From Candidatus Ruania gallistercoris (GTDB lineage: Bacteria > Actinomycetota > Actinomycetes > Actinomycetales > Beutenbergiaceae): DNA of 56,947 nucleotides. Below the pieces are notes generated by a model. It did no database searches. It was not told the DNA's origin and saw nothing but the letters and a program-made list of their open reading frames with translations. Below, in pieces: positions 6,870 through 41,948 of this stretch; within the stretch, counting starts at the first letter, position 1, and each line of letters starts with the position of its first letter. A program made the translations under genes and the position numbers. The stretch is from positions 1 to 56,947 of the forward strand of contig DXBY01000164.1 in assembly GCA_019116305.1 (NCBI GenBank). Reading direction: 5' to 3'.

Positions 6870-7002
6870 AACACTGAACGCCGTCGCACCCGCCCGCTCA
6901 GACCGTTCCACCCCCCCCCTACCGCTGACGTCCTGACCGGGCACCAGGAGCAGCCCGCCGACAACTGCGGGCGATCGGTGCGCCGGTGGAGCAGGAGGTT
7001 TC

Positions 7003-34428: not shown

Positions 34429-34494
34429 CCGGCTTGAGCCACTTCGCTGGCTCGTTCCGCCGCATTGGCAGCCGCGGCACGCCACGATGGATTC

Positions 34495-35673
34495 ATGAGG
34501 GTTCGGCGCTGGCGGTGGTCGTCGTACTCGATCGTGGTGGCGACAGCCATCGCCGTCACGGGTTGCACAGTGGCGGACGCACCCACGGAACCCGCCTCCG
34601 CAGATGACTCGTCGGCCAGCGCCGACCCCGCTCCTGCGCCGGTGGTGGATCCGTGGCACCAGGTCCCCGACCTGCGCACCGAGCCCCGCCGCGGGTGGCA
34701 GGTGAGCATCGATGCCCCCACCGGTTCCTGGCTCTTCGAATCCGCGATCGCTGTCCAGGACACCACCGGCGTGACCGGCTATGACAGCGCCACCGGAGTC
34801 GAACGCTGGCACCTGCCGGCTGCTGGCCTGCTGTGCAACGCGACCATCGTGGCGCTCACCTGCGCGAGCGCAACCGGTGCGCTCACCACCATCGATCCTG
34901 CCACCGGTGACTCGACCACGGCCGAGGTCGAGGGCGCGTTCGCCGGTATCGCCATCGCAGACGATCTGGTGGTGTGGCGGCAGGGCGAGGAGGGCACTGT
35001 CGTCGAGCGCCGCCACGGCGGCGATGTGCTCTGGTCGCAGCCCTCGGCCGTGGTCGAGGACACCGCGATCACCGTGATCAACGGGACCGTCCTGGCCGCA
35101 GGCGGCGGGGACAACGGCACGGGCGATGCGCTGGATGCGGCCACCGGAAGCCCGGTCCACGCTGACCTGCGGCAGGCCAACCGGTGGAACCAGAGCCGCT
35201 GGCTACTCTTCACCGAGAGCGAGGTGTGGGAGGTCGCTGCCGGATCCCCGTCCCGCGCGGTGGACGATTCCCGGGAGATCTTCATCGCCGACTCCCACCC
35301 GACCCAGCCGGCGCCACCGGAACGCCCGAGCGAGCCCTTGGGTCCGTTCGCCCGAGCCGGGGAAGTGGTCTTCCACTCCTACCCGGAGCACGGCCCCACC
35401 GCGTTCACCGCCTGGGACGCCACCACGGGTACTGAGCACTGGAGCGGGCCCGCCATCCGATTCCGGGACAATCTGCTCTGGGTCGATGCGACCACCCTCG
35501 CCGTTGCCACCGCCGAACCCACGGGCGGAGACTTCGTCGCCCTCGATGCGAGTACCGGCGAGGTCGTCTGGGAGCTGGCGTCCGAGACCACGATTCGCCG
35601 CGTCCTCAGCGATGGCGACACCCTCGTCATCGTCTCCGACAATGCGGTCCAGTCCTGGCGCCTGGACAGCTGA
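34495..35673 (+). CDS. PQQ-like beta-propeller lipoprotein (array copy 1)
   Basis: 392 residues. ATG 34495 gives a lipoprotein signal with lipobox AVTGC (Cys24), then an Asp/Ala/Pro linker and a repeated-blade domain (GVTGYDSATGVERWHLPA, LTTIDPATGDS, FTAWDATTGTEHWSGPAI, VALDASTGEVVWELASE) typical of PQQ-like beta-propellers; no quinone-binding enzyme residues are evident, so it is probably a binding or scaffold protein on the outer face of the membrane. It shares the DPWHQVPDLRTEP segment with copies 4 and 5. No Shine-Dalgarno; CACGAT six bases upstream suggests a leaderless mRNA. Confidence 0.82.
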   Translation: MRVRRWRWSSYSIVVATAIAVTGCTVADAPTEPASADDSSASADPAPAPVVDPWHQVPDLRTEPRRGWQVSIDAPTGSWLFESAIAVQDTTGVTGYDSATGVERWHLPAAGLLCNATIVALTCASATGALTTIDPATGDSTTAEVEGAFAGIAIADDLVVWRQGEEGTVVERRHGGDVLWSQPSAVVEDTAITVINGTVLAAGGGDNGTGDALDAATGSPVHADLRQANRWNQSRWLLFTESEVWEVAAGSPSRAVDDSREIFIADSHPTQPAPPERPSEPLGPFARAGEVVFHSYPEHGPTAFTAWDATTGTEHWSGPAIRFRDNLLWVDATTLAVATAEPTGGDFVALDASTGEVVWELASETTIRRVLSDGDTLVIVSDNAVQSWRLDS

Positions 35674-35717
35674 CCTGAAAGCCGGCGCATGACCATCGCA
35701 CGGTCACGATGCATGAC

Positions 35718-36125
35718 TCAGGCGAACGGGTTGACCACCATGACCCCGCCGTAGTCCTGACCGTCGTTCAGGTCCTCGGAAAGCACCACCGGGCACTCCA
35801 GCAGCCGCGCTGCCTCGATGATGGCCGCATCCCAGAAGGAGAGCTGGAATCGATCTCGTGTGGACAAGGCGGCTCGGGTCAGCGCAAGAGTTCCTTCCTG
35901 TACCGGGAACCGCGCAAAAGCGACGATCAGATCGACGGCCTGCCGGTGCGAGAGGGGATCAGTTCGGGTCGCCCTGGTGGCCTGCACGTAGAACTCGTGC
36001 AAGACCTGAACGGACAGTGCCAGGTCGCGTCCGCCGAGCAGTTCCCTGGCTACCGCGGCCTTGGCCGCCTCCGCCGAATCCCGCGACACCGCGTAGAGGA
36101 GGACGTTCGTGTCAACGAACCGCAC
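35718..36125 (-). CDS. vapC: PIN-domain ribonuclease toxin, VapC type (second pair)
   Basis: 135 residues. Acidic PIN residues lie in RFVDTNVLLYA and SFWDAAIIEAARLL, and the C-terminus VVLSEDLNDGQDYGGVMVVNPF is characteristic of the family. The GTG start overlaps the antitoxin gene by 14 bp. Unlike the pair at 31.8 kb in sequence, so not a recent duplicate. The pair sits between copies 1 and 2 of the beta-propeller array, on the opposite strand. Confidence 0.88.
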   Translation of the reverse strand: MRFVDTNVLLYAVSRDSAEAAKAAVARELLGGRDLALSVQVLHEFYVQATRATRTDPLSHRQAVDLIVAFARFPVQEGTLALTRAALSTRDRFQLSFWDAAIIEAARLLECPVVLSEDLNDGQDYGGVMVVNPFA

Positions 36126-36351
36126 GGTCGTGAACCTCGTCGCGGGACAAGCGGTCTACTGCGCGGAAGGCCGAAATCTCGCTGAGGACTCGTTCCTGTA
36201 GCTCGACCTTGGCCGCAAAATCCGCACCGCTGTGCGCAAGTTCCCGCAAGTATCTGGTGACCAAAGCGCTCACCGAGACGCCTTCCTCAGCGGCCCTGAT
36301 CCGGGCTTGCCTGTAGACGTCCTCCGGGACCGTCACGGTGAGATTCTTCAT
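36112..36351 (-). CDS. vapB: Ribbon-helix-helix antitoxin, VapB type (second pair)
   Basis: 79 residues beginning MKNLTVTVPEDVYRQARIRAAEEG, a CopG/VapB-like ribbon-helix-helix; the rest should wrap the toxin. ATG 36351 has TAAACT six bases upstream and no Shine-Dalgarno, so it is probably leaderless. Two copies of a 15-bp repeat lie just upstream and may be its own operator. Confidence 0.85.
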   Translation of the reverse strand: MKNLTVTVPEDVYRQARIRAAEEGVSVSALVTRYLRELAHSGADFAAKVELQERVLSEISAFRAVDRLSRDEVHDRAVR

Positions 36352-36369
36352 CTGTCCAGTTTAGCTCAA

Positions 36370-36400
36370 CACACAGAAACACAGGCACACAGAAACACAG
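36370..36400. promoter_or_regulatory. 15-bp direct repeat, candidate VapB operator
   Basis: CACACAGAAACACAG occurs at 36370-36384 and again at 36386-36400, a 16-bp period, 19 bp upstream of the antitoxin start codon in an unusually A-rich patch. It covers the region where the -35 box of the leftward promoter should lie. Confidence 0.55.
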
Positions 36401-36459
36401 TTCAGCAATCGGAAGAAGCGCCCGTGCCCGAGTTTGCCCCACCGAGGCATGATGGCTTC

Positions 36460-37818
36460 ATGTCGAAGGGGCCGGTCGAGGAGTTCACGCTCGACGGCGC
36501 AGGCACCCCAGGCGAGGAGAGTTCCGCTGGCCACAGCGTGAGAGGGCACGGCCCGCCCGAGCCGGATCGCCGACGGCGGAGCACGCGGGGCTGGTGGCGC
36601 TCACCCGGGCCTTGGGTCGCCGCAGCGGTGGTGCTGGTCGTGGTCGGTGCCGCGGTCTCCCCGCAGGGCGAGCCGCTGGAGCCACGTCCTCCGGACACGG
36701 CCTGGGCGGCGCCAGCAGAGCCCGGGCGTGCCCCCGGGGTCTGGGTCCTCGGCGACCAGCCCGTTGTCACCACTGCCGACGGCGTCACCGCCTTCGACCC
36801 CAGCACCGGCGACTCCGCCTGGACAGTCCCGTTGGCCGACCCGGCCTGCACCGCCACCGACCAGGCCCTCACTTGCGTCCACGGCGAGGGCGAGAACGCC
36901 GCCATCGCCACCATCAACCCCACCGGCGAAGCCACCGAACTCCCCTTCCCCGATGCCGACATCGCCACCCAGGTGGGCGAGGACCTGATCATCGGCGGCG
37001 GCCTCACCAGCAACCCCTGGCTCGGCCGATACACCACCGGAGAAGGCCCACCCACCGAAGTCTGGCGCTACCAACCCGAATACCCCGTCGACGGGCCCGA
37101 ACGGTGGACCGACGCAACGCTCAGCCAAGGCATCGCCACTATATCCGCCGACTCAGGCGAGACAGTGGTCGACGGTTCGGGCCAGTTCGATTCCCGCGCC
37201 GCCCTGGCCGCCGATCTCGAGACCGGTGAGCCCAGGCCCGCCGTTGTACGGACAACGAGGGCCAGTGGGGTCAGTTATACCGTGGGGGTCGAGGACGAGT
37301 GGAACCACGTTGTGCTGCCGCTTCCCGGCCCGGAGCCGACGGTCCCCGGCTACCCCGATGCCGTGTTCACCGGCCGTGGCGCATTCGACGAGTACCGCGG
37401 TGATCGCATCCTGGAGTACCTCGGCAGCCCGCTGCTGGCTGTCGACGGCACCATCATCATCGCCGAACTCGATACTGACCTCCTCGGAACTCTGGAACCG
37501 GGCGAAGAGGTCGAACTGGTGACGCAGACCGAACGCGTGGACGTGCGCACCGGCGAGGCCCAGTGGCAGCTGAACCGCGATCAACTCATGAGTTGCCCGT
37601 GCGCGGCCGGCCCCGACACGATGGTCCTGACCGGGTCGGAAATCACCGACGTCGACCGCTTCACCGTCGGTCCAGTGGCGCTCCTCGGCATCCACCCCGA
37701 CACCGGCCGGCACGAGTGGACCCTGCCGATCAGCACCGCCCCGGACGCGGTCGCCGCCGGAGCCGACCAGGTCTACGTCCTCACGGCCGGCACGCTGACC
37801 GCTTACGAGAACACCTGA
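36460..37818 (+). CDS. Membrane-anchored PQQ-like beta-propeller protein (array copy 2)
   Basis: 452 residues: a short cytoplasmic N-terminus with MSKGPVEEFTLDG, a basic stretch, one membrane helix (WVAAAVVLVVVGAAVSPQG), then an extracytoplasmic propeller with blade motifs (GVTAFDPSTGDSAWTVPLAD, LLGIHPDTGRHEWTLPI). Cysteines occur as CTATDQALTC and as a CPC motif, so disulfides are likely. ATG 36460 is preceded by CATGAT at six bases and no Shine-Dalgarno. The N-terminal half is nearly the same as in copy 3. Function unknown; possibly ligand sensing or cell-wall binding. Confidence 0.82.
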   Translation: MSKGPVEEFTLDGAGTPGEESSAGHSVRGHGPPEPDRRRRSTRGWWRSPGPWVAAAVVLVVVGAAVSPQGEPLEPRPPDTAWAAPAEPGRAPGVWVLGDQPVVTTADGVTAFDPSTGDSAWTVPLADPACTATDQALTCVHGEGENAAIATINPTGEATELPFPDADIATQVGEDLIIGGGLTSNPWLGRYTTGEGPPTEVWRYQPEYPVDGPERWTDATLSQGIATISADSGETVVDGSGQFDSRAALAADLETGEPRPAVVRTTRASGVSYTVGVEDEWNHVVLPLPGPEPTVPGYPDAVFTGRGAFDEYRGDRILEYLGSPLLAVDGTIIIAELDTDLLGTLEPGEEVELVTQTERVDVRTGEAQWQLNRDQLMSCPCAAGPDTMVLTGSEITDVDRFTVGPVALLGIHPDTGRHEWTLPISTAPDAVAAGADQVYVLTAGTLTAYENT

Positions 37819-37828
37819 GCATGACCCG

Positions 37829-39166
37829 ATGAAAGCTCGGCACACTGAGGAGTTCGCGCTCGACGGCGTCGGACCGGCTGACAGCGCGGGTTCCGTGGGT
37901 CACGGCTCGAGTGGGAGTGGCCCGTCCGGGCCAGAACGCCCACGGCGGAACTCACGGGGCTGTTGGCGCTCGCCCGGGCCCTGGGTCGCCGCAGCGGTGG
38001 TTCTGGTCGTGGTCGGTGCCGCGGTCTCCCCTCAGGGGGAGCCGCTGGAGCCACGTCCTCCGGACCCGGCCTGGTCCGCGCCAGCCGACCCCGGCCGCGC
38101 TCCCGGAGTCTGGGTCCTCGCCGACCAACCGGTGGTCACGACTGCCGAGGGCGTCACCGCCTACGACCCCAGCACCGGCGACCCCGCCTGGACCCTCGAC
38201 CTGGACGACCCTGCCTGCACCGCCACCGAGGCAGCCCTGACCTGCGTCCACGGCGAAGGCGAGAACGCCGCCATCGCCACCATCGACCCCACCGGCGAAG
38301 CCACCGAACTCCCTTTCCCCGACGCCGACATCGCCGTGACCGCCGACGAGGACCTGATCATCGGCGGAGGCCTCACCAGCAACCCCTGGCTCGGCCGGTA
38401 CACCACCACCGGAGAAGGCCCACCCACCGAGGTCTGGCGTTACCAACCCGAATACCCCATCGACCGTGCCGAACGGTGGACCGGAGCAACCGTCAGCCAA
38501 GGCATCGCCACCATATTCACTCAACACACCACGGCCTCCGGGGGCCCGGCGCTCGACCTGGCCGCCGAGGTGGCCAGCGGCGAGAGCCGCCCGGCCGTGG
38601 TGCAGCGGCTGGGCGGCTTCGCGGTGAGCAACGTGGGCCGGACCTCTGCCGAATGGCAGCAGCAGGCGCCGCCGTTGGCCGGAACCGAGCCGGAGATCCC
38701 CGGTCACCCGGACCTCGTCTTCACGATGACTGGTGCTCGGGACCCCTCCGGCGGTGAGCTCGTTCTCTCCTATACCGGGCTCCCGCTCCTCACTCTCGGT
38801 GACGACCTGGTCTACTCCGCTACCTCACCCGGCACCCGGGTAGAGCTGACCGGTCCGGACGAGATCTCCGTGCGGCTCGAACGCGTGGATGTGCTCACCG
38901 GCCAGTCGCAGTGGCAGTTCGATCGGGACAACTACCTGACCTGCCCGTGTGCGACGAACGTGGACACGCTCGCCCTGGTCGCCGCCAGCTTCGAGCCGGA
39001 CGACACCTTCACCGCCGTGCCGCAGTCAGTGCTCGGCATCGACCCCGACACCGGTCGGCACCACTGGACCCTTCCGATCAGCACCACGCCCGACGGTATC
39101 GCCGCCGGCCCCGACCAGATCTACGTCCTGACCGCCGGCACGCTCACCGCCTACACCGACCGCTGA
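37829..39166 (+). CDS. Membrane-anchored PQQ-like beta-propeller protein (array copy 3)
   Basis: 445 residues, starting 10 bp after copy 2 and probably co-transcribed. N-terminal motif TEEFALDG, membrane helix WVAAAVVLVVVGAAVSPQG identical to copy 2, then blades with GVTAYDPSTGDPAWTLDLDD and SVLGIDPDTGRHHWTLPI; cysteines CTATEAALTC and CPC are conserved. Identity to copy 2 is very high up to about residue 230 (shared LIIGGGLTSNPWLGRYTT) and then drops sharply in the middle, before rising again at the C-terminus. This mosaic suggests recent duplication with diversification or gene conversion. Confidence 0.82.
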   Translation: MKARHTEEFALDGVGPADSAGSVGHGSSGSGPSGPERPRRNSRGCWRSPGPWVAAAVVLVVVGAAVSPQGEPLEPRPPDPAWSAPADPGRAPGVWVLADQPVVTTAEGVTAYDPSTGDPAWTLDLDDPACTATEAALTCVHGEGENAAIATIDPTGEATELPFPDADIAVTADEDLIIGGGLTSNPWLGRYTTTGEGPPTEVWRYQPEYPIDRAERWTGATVSQGIATIFTQHTTASGGPALDLAAEVASGESRPAVVQRLGGFAVSNVGRTSAEWQQQAPPLAGTEPEIPGHPDLVFTMTGARDPSGGELVLSYTGLPLLTLGDDLVYSATSPGTRVELTGPDEISVRLERVDVLTGQSQWQFDRDNYLTCPCATNVDTLALVAASFEPDDTFTAVPQSVLGIDPDTGRHHWTLPISTTPDGIAAGPDQIYVLTAGTLTAYTDR

Positions 39167-39210: not shown

Positions 39211-40590
39211 GTGCGATCCGGGCCCATCGAGGAGTTCGCCGTCACTGGGGACGACGGCGAGACTCGCCGCGCGCTGCACGGGTCGCCGGCCGCTGCGGCC
39301 CCGGCAGGTGCGGGGCACACCCGCACCTCACGCGGCGCGCCCTGGCGCGGCGCCCTGCCCTGGATGGGCATCGCCGTCCTCCTGGTGCTTGCTGCCGTGG
39401 CCGTGGCACCGGCCCGACCCCCGGAGGTCTCCCCCTGGGGGCAGGTCGCCGATGTGACCAGCAGGCCGGAGCCGGCCTGGGTGGCCGAACCCGGCGAAGG
39501 CACGCTGCGCACGGCACTGCTCGCCGATGGGGTGCTGATCACCGTCTCCACCGGAGGAGTGCAGGGCATCAGTCTCCAGGACGGCGCGAGGGAGTGGAGC
39601 CAGGCACTGGATCGGCCGCGCTGCACCAGCAACGGGCAGAACTTGGTCTGCGTCGAACCCGGTACCCGCGTGCTGGACCTTGCTCCGCAGACCGGCCTGA
39701 TCGTGGCCGAGCGCGCCTTGCCGCAGGTGCAGCTGGCCACCCGGGAGGCGGGCGACCTGTACGCCATCACCGGCGGCCAGGAACCACAGCTGCAGCGCTT
39801 CACCGGGACCGAACCGGTGTGGTCGGTACCGGTCGACGACATCGAGCTCAACACCCCGGTGGGTAGAGACCTCACCGTGATCGCCGGTCATGTGCTGACC
39901 AACGCGGTGACCGCCGTGCTGCCGCGGCACAACGGCAGCGCGGCCGGAACAGTGGTCGATGCCGAGAGCGGCACACCGGTGGGCGCCGAACAGGGCCGCG
40001 GCGGTGCGACCGTCCGGCGGCTCACCGCCGACATGTGGACCTCGGCAGGCGCAGGTACCGCGGCGGTCTACGTGCGCGGGGAGAGCGAGCCACACCTGAC
40101 CGCGGCAGCCGGGGCGAGCATCGGCTACGACGCACAGTGGGACGCCGCGCAGCAGCTGCGCACCGGGCCCGACGGCAGCATCGGCGTGTTCGACACCGGT
40201 GCCGATACCTGGCTGTGGCAGGGCGGTGGCCCACAGTGGCCCCTCGCCCGGGTAGACGGGGTGCTGATCGGGATGCAGTCCTCCCCGGCCCTGCACGTGG
40301 TGGGCCGCGCCAGCGCCACCGGTGAGGTGCTCTGGACGATCGAGGACCGGATCGCGCAGTGCCCGTGCCTGGCCGACGGGCACACTCTGGTCGCCAGCCT
40401 CGCCGGCGGGTCCGCAGCCGAGGGCGGCTGGAGCCTCGGCAGAGCCGAGCTCGTCGGCATCGACGCCCGCAGCGGTGAGGTGGTGTGGCGGCTCCAGGCC
40501 CAGAGCCACTGGACCGAGCTGCTCACCGACGGCGCCCACCTGGTGGCAATCGACCCGCCCCGGGTGCGGGCCTGGGACCTGGGGCAGTAG
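39211..40590 (+). CDS. Membrane-anchored PQQ-like beta-propeller protein (array copy 4)
   Basis: 459 residues from GTG 39211; the ORF-track start at 38911 overlaps copy 3. N-terminal motif SGPIEEFAVTGDDG, membrane helix MGIAVLLVLAAVAVAPA, then PWGQVADVTSRPEPAW, a signature shared with copies 1 and 5. Blade motifs include GISLQDGAREWSQAL and GIDARSGEVVWRLQA; conserved cysteines are in RCTSNGQNLVC and QCPC. GACGAT lies six bases before the GTG, no Shine-Dalgarno. More distant from copies 2 and 3 than from copy 5. Confidence 0.82.
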   Translation: MRSGPIEEFAVTGDDGETRRALHGSPAAAAPAGAGHTRTSRGAPWRGALPWMGIAVLLVLAAVAVAPARPPEVSPWGQVADVTSRPEPAWVAEPGEGTLRTALLADGVLITVSTGGVQGISLQDGAREWSQALDRPRCTSNGQNLVCVEPGTRVLDLAPQTGLIVAERALPQVQLATREAGDLYAITGGQEPQLQRFTGTEPVWSVPVDDIELNTPVGRDLTVIAGHVLTNAVTAVLPRHNGSAAGTVVDAESGTPVGAEQGRGGATVRRLTADMWTSAGAGTAAVYVRGESEPHLTAAAGASIGYDAQWDAAQQLRTGPDGSIGVFDTGADTWLWQGGGPQWPLARVDGVLIGMQSSPALHVVGRASATGEVLWTIEDRIAQCPCLADGHTLVASLAGGSAAEGGWSLGRAELVGIDARSGEVVWRLQAQSHWTELLTDGAHLVAIDPPRVRAWDLGQ

Positions 40591-40650
40591 GCGGGCGGCG
40601 GGCGCCGCACCAGTGCGACCACGGCGGCGTTGTACGGCAGGATGGCAGAC

Positions 40651-41948
40651 GTGTCGAAGGGGCCGGTCGAAGAGTTCACCGTCAGCGGTGGCCAGGACAC
40701 CTCGGCGACCACGCCCGACCCGGCCGCACCCACCCGGCGACCAGGGCGAGGCCCGGCCGCCTGGGTGAGCTTCGCCGTCGTGCTGGTTCTGCTCGGAGCC
40801 GCCCTCGCCCAGCCGCTGCAGCTCGGCGCCGACCCATGGAGCGCGGTGCCGGACGTGACCTCCGTACCCCAGCAGGCGTGGACCGTGCAGCCGGAGGAGG
40901 ATGTGCACCTGGCGTTGCTCGCCGACGGCGTGCTGGTCACCGCGGGCGTCCAGACGGTGCGGGGCCGGATCCGGGCAGCGGTGCGGAGTTGTGGGCGCGG
41001 GAGCTGGTGGGGGCACGGTGCACCTCCGACGGTGAGAACCTGGTCTGCACCGACTCCGCCGCCCAGGTGCTGCAGATCGAACCACGCTCCGGCGCGGCCA
41101 CCGAGCTGGAGGTTCCGCAGGCGCTCGTGGTCACGGTGGCCGACGGGGACGTGTTCGCGCTCACCAGCGACGGTCAGCTGCAGCGGCGCTCCGGCGGAGA
41201 GGTGATCTGGTCCGCTCCGGTGAGCGTCGCCACCGACTTCCACCGGGGCGGTCAGGGGCTCACGGTGATCGCCGGGTACGTGCTCACCACCCAGGTGCTG
41301 GACCCGGCGAACTTCGGTGCCTCCGGGGCCGTGTTCGATGCCGCCACCGGGCAGCCGTGGGAGCGCACGAATGCCCTCGTGCTGCCACTCGATGCAGGGG
41401 TGTGGGTGGTCAGCCACGCCGATGGCGGCAGCGTGTTCGTGCACGGTGCGGACGAGCCCCGGACGGCCAACGGGGTGCTGCTGCAGTACGACGATCAATG
41501 GCGGAGCTCGCAGCAGGTCACCACCACCGACGATGAACAGCTCGGAGTCCTGGACCGGGAGTCCGGGGACCTGCTGTGGCGGACCGACTATCCCGCCTAC
41601 CCGTTGGCCCGTGCCGGTGGGGTGATCCTCGCCCTGGCCAGCGCCGAGCAGGGGAACGTGGTGCGTGGGGTGCAGGCCGGCAGCGGTGAGCTGCTCTGGG
41701 AGCGCTCCAACGCCTGGCTGACCTGTCCGTGCCTGAGCGACGGCTCGACCCTGACCGGCCACCTGGTCACGGTCGGGGCGGAAGGGTCGGCGAACCCGGA
41801 GCAGGCCGAGATCATCGGACTGGATCTCCGCTCCGGTGCCCAGCTCTGGAGCCTGCCCCGGCCGCCGACAACGCTCGCGACCCTCACCGACGGTGAGCAT
41901 CTGGTGCTGGCCGCCGCCGCGGAGCTGTCCGGGTGGCGACTGGGCTGA
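40651..41948 (+). pseudogene. PQQ-like beta-propeller gene with a one-base frameshift (array copy 5)
   Basis: The N-terminal part (SKGPVEEFTVSGG, membrane helix FAVVLVLLGAALAQPL, DPWSAVPDVTSVPQQAW) is in one frame from GTG 40651; the rest (SGAELWARELVGARCTSDGENLVC through SGWRLG) is in another. The frames join if the GGGG at 40961-40964 is read as five Gs, giving about 432 residues aligned with copy 4 throughout. Both halves look well conserved, so the loss is very recent, phase-variable, or a sequencing error in the homopolymer. The start region is homologous in DNA to that of copy 2. Confidence 0.78.

Follow-up and report, generated by a model that had tools for sequence, protein, structure and literature searches.

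Does the broken reading frame of copy 5, a gene in a tandem family of beta-propeller genes in the draft genome of Candidatus Ruania gallistercoris, reflect a reversible switch, a recent loss or an error of the assembly? A first-pass annotation of this locus offered all three readings, as a phase-variation switch, a null mutation and an assembly error. The window analysed here is one whole contig of 56,947 bases with a GC content of 70%. It belongs to a genome draft (G000) of 4.37 Mb in 357 contigs that is 92.7% complete, and the shortest contigs sampled are 2.6 kb long. From the number of its contigs and its short contigs, the draft looks like a metagenome bin. Copy 5 was compared with an intact paralogue in the window, copy 4 (39214–40590, forward strand; open frame; PQQ_2 E value 3.7e-7), and with its syntenic orthologue in G007, a genome of the same genus. 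Only one of the seven other genomes of the genus, G007, carries such an orthologue, which was the sole one used for tract conservation. Two scans of the GTDB r220 contigs for relatives, one with the alignment and one with the intact orthologue, returned none.

Copy 5 is one base short in the draft

Copy 5 spans about 40651–41948 on the forward strand and ends with a stop codon at 41946–41948. GTG at 40651 is the probable start codon, since it lines up with the starts of the G007 orthologue and copy 2, and ATG at 40642 is the alternative. The upstream half of the gene (40651–40962, forward strand) encodes an N-terminal segment, an apparent transmembrane segment and the start of the propeller. 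Its product (residues 1–107, frame 1) displays 61% identity to the G007 orthologue, and up to about 40962 the start frame runs colinear with both the G007 orthologue and copy 4. Colinearity resumes in the -1 frame from 40965. The downstream half (40965–41948, forward strand) encodes the remaining propeller in this frame, which is open for 327 codons up to the stop, and shares 60% identity with the G007 orthologue.

Both halves align with copy 4, as the first-pass annotation had described. The upstream half yields a score of 177 (47% identity over 100 amino acids) and the downstream half a score of 521 (40% identity over 321 amino acids), well above the highest scores from shuffled sequences (66 in 200 shuffles and 80, respectively). 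The GC content by codon position is 0.78/0.54/0.89 in frame 1 in the upstream half and 0.74/0.53/0.88 in frame 0 in the downstream half, and this pattern changes frame at the same place as the alignments do. The G007 orthologue has an intact reading frame and is 72% identical to copy 5 at the DNA level over nearly the full gene. The DNA alignment of the two genes contains a one-base gap at the break site, and its remaining gaps are multiples of three or fall within roughly the first hundred columns, where conservation is poor. Copy 5 is one base short in the draft, and its frame is broken relative to an intact orthologue, as in a frameshift pseudogene.

The site of the shift is defined less sharply. 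The protein matches of the two halves overlap (40651–40965 and 40962–41945), and the break can therefore be placed only to about ten bases. The frame-break interval (40959–40968, forward strand) is the overlap of the two matches in different frames and holds the GGGG run at 40961–40964, whose coordinates agree with the sequence. Thus, the one-base shift itself is upheld by the alignments, the codon-position GC and the gap relative to G007, whereas its assignment to the GGGG run is not; the run is one candidate site inside the interval. If the sequence is real, direct translation continues out of frame from 40963 to 41205 (forward strand) through about 80 unrelated residues to a stop. The literal product from ATG 40642 consists of 187 amino acids, of which 107 are native (including the apparent transmembrane segment) and 80 are unrelated.

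Copies 1–5 and the G007 copies all match the PQQ_2 family (PF13360) of BamB-like beta-propeller proteins, and the downstream half of copy 5 matches it with 50 bits (curated cut-off 27.6; E value 4.1e-13). Unlike PQQ_2 BamB-like proteins, the copies described here bear one apparent transmembrane stretch in an N-terminal segment and are divergent tandem paralogues. With an apparent transmembrane segment at its N-terminus and a PQQ_2-type propeller behind it, the product of copy 5 is plausibly a surface protein.

The downstream half is still constrained

The two other frames of the downstream half hold seven and four stops, respectively. The dN/dS ratio relative to G007 is 0.48 in the downstream half, close to the 0.54 of the upstream half. 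An open downstream frame with such a ratio indicates that the lesion is either recent or not real and that the gene is not long dead. The propeller family is also fast-evolving, with 60% amino-acid identity to G007 for copy 5 versus 94% for the neighbouring sugar-isomerase-like gene, and its copy number differs among relatives. The loss of one copy is therefore plausible.

The GGGG run does not resemble a phase-variable tract

Slippage at the G-run could in principle act as a reversible switch for the surface protein. The run lies inside an apparent surface-protein gene, at or near the frame break, and thereby resembles the homopolymeric tracts of phase-variable genes in Campylobacter, Neisseria and P. 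acnes; in addition, no MutS match was found in the lineage. However, copy 5 differs from these genes in both the length and the conservation of its run. The run comprises just four bases, as opposed to about seven or more in the phase-variable genes, and the G007 orthologue, the one orthologue compared, lacks a run of four Gs at the break site. Variation in the length of the run was not observed. Searches for phase-variable tracts begin at seven G/C (PMC6321876) or, in P. acnes, at more than six bases (PMC4746626). Spontaneous frameshift rates in mycobacteria are 1e-7 to 1e-6 per CFU for runs of 4–5, compared with 1e-5 to 1e-2 per CFU for runs of 7–9 (PMC10159617). By these published cut-offs and rates, GGGG falls short of the length expected of a switch (about seven or more G/C).

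Runs of this size are also ordinary in the window. The window contains 197 G-runs of four or more. Runs of this size are rarer there than in mononucleotide shuffles. Copy 5 itself contains 17 G/C runs of four or more, one of which is longer (GGGGG at 41009). We consider a phase-variation switch at this site very improbable, and it is equally hard to credit that a short G-run within the tandem propeller family could switch a surface protein on and off at a low rate in a lineage whose indel repair has no recognisable MutS. The switch proposed by the first-pass annotation is thus not sustained, given a short ordinary run that is unconserved and below the slippage range, whereas both the null mutation and the assembly error fit the data. 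A four-base run in a genome of 70% GC is, as a caution, no evidence for phase variation.

The longest homopolymer of the window is a run of nine Cs at 6911–6919, which lies upstream of a small conserved membrane-protein-like gene and is absent from G007. As a candidate for length variation, this run would be preferable to GGGG.

Recoding at the break site

The full protein could also be produced from the sequence as it stands if ribosomes underwent a programmed -1 frameshift, or if transcription slipped, at the run. In favour of this are the open, constrained downstream frame and the -1 direction, which is a usual one for such a shift. Nevertheless, the zero-frame codons at the site (GTG CGG GGC CGG) contain no canonical X XXY YYZ heptamer, and local folding does not exceed that of shuffled sequences in strength (z 0.65; folded with DNA parameters). 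Moreover, the G007 orthologue is encoded in one frame and needs no shift. The slippery heptamer and stimulatory structure, conserved in relatives, that define a programmed -1 frameshift are therefore lacking at copy 5, and recoding is the least probable of the readings considered.

Null mutation or assembly error

The frequency of frameshifts was sampled in six contigs (181 kb) of the draft against the matching parts of G007. Matches were kept only if both sides had a coding GC pattern, which left 121 genes (132 kb of coding sequence). This filter by codon-position GC was chosen after two earlier versions of the screen had failed, and it may miss genes of atypical composition. The first version produced many false splits through stop-to-stop reading upstream of true starts. 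A filter by third-position difference missed the known case of copy 5, whereas the codon-position-GC filter recovered copy 5 alone. Copy 5 is the only frameshift of this genome in the compared genes, and none was found on the G007 side of the 121 genes. The six contigs contain about 1,430 G/C runs of at least four bases, and a sole frameshift despite so many runs indicates that indels are not a general problem of the assembly; a single isolated error may still have occurred.

In our preferred reading, to which we assign a probability of roughly 55%, copy 5 is one paralogue of a variable tandem family encoding membrane-anchored beta-propellers of the PQQ_2 type and was inactivated recently. The values behind the wording for this and the three other readings are judgements, not computed quantities. 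One base would have been lost in or beside the short G-run, probably by replication slippage, and the frame would have shifted after about codon 104. The possible product would comprise the N-terminal part, transmembrane segment included, and about 80 meaningless residues, and the propeller would thereby be lost. The frame shift, the intact syntenic orthologue in G007 and the persisting constraint on the downstream frame are directly established. We infer that the deletion is present in the living cell rather than just in the assembly; the truncated protein would be inactive. Both the intact orthologue and the isolation of the frameshift among the genes and G/C runs sampled argue for inactivation.

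The mismatch-repair genes of the family also speak for this reading. A MutS profile (MutS_I) matched none of the 24 genomes of the family. NucS (PF01939) was matched in the other 23 genomes, and the NucS system of M. smegmatis does not repair indels of 1–2 bases (PMC11551767). The genome under study gave no NucS match, and its NucS gene probably lies in the unassembled 7%.

Alternatively, the organism carries an intact gene, and the missing base arose from a consensus error in sequencing or assembly or from strain collapse in a metagenome assembly. We regard this as a serious possibility, a little short of even odds. The downstream half is undamaged, with an open frame, a coding GC pattern and constraint equal to that of the upstream half, as if selection had never relaxed; an assembly error explains this equally well. 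The fragmentation of the draft and its resemblance to a metagenome bin point in the same direction. On the other hand, with no second frameshift in the 121 genes, such errors are rare in this assembly. That the single case falls in a fast-evolving paralogue and not in a conserved gene tips the balance slightly towards a real loss. Comparison with a single syntenic relative establishes the broken frame, not its cause.

Recent inactivation would make copy 5 an ordinary frameshift pseudogene. Such pseudogenes, like the single-base indel errors of draft genomes, show a one-base break, otherwise intact halves and an intact orthologue in a relative, and copy 5 displays no observed feature that distinguishes it from them. 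A single copy that is broken or wrongly assembled is of small importance by itself in a redundant gene family.

Possible turnover in the propeller family

G007 lacks a counterpart to copy 1 and to the sequence between it and copy 2 (34429–36450); in that genome, the neighbouring genes are separated by 45 bases. Copies 2 and 3 (36460–37818 and 37829–39166) are 84–93% identical over roughly alignment columns 60–240, but only about 40% identical across the 180 columns that follow. A pair of G007 genes (L021 3982–5337 and 5306–6682) exhibits the same pattern, with 93% identity over columns 60–180, whereas the identity between the two genomes in that stretch is only 75–80%. Since copies 2 and 3 are alike within each genome and less so between genomes, these alignments suggest that the N-terminal half underwent gene conversion separately in each lineage. 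The gene order also appears to be swapped between window positions 39214–41948 and L021 6717–9537 of G007. In G007, the copy 5 orthologue precedes the copy that groups with window copy 4 (support 89/89), a pair that is only 40% identical.
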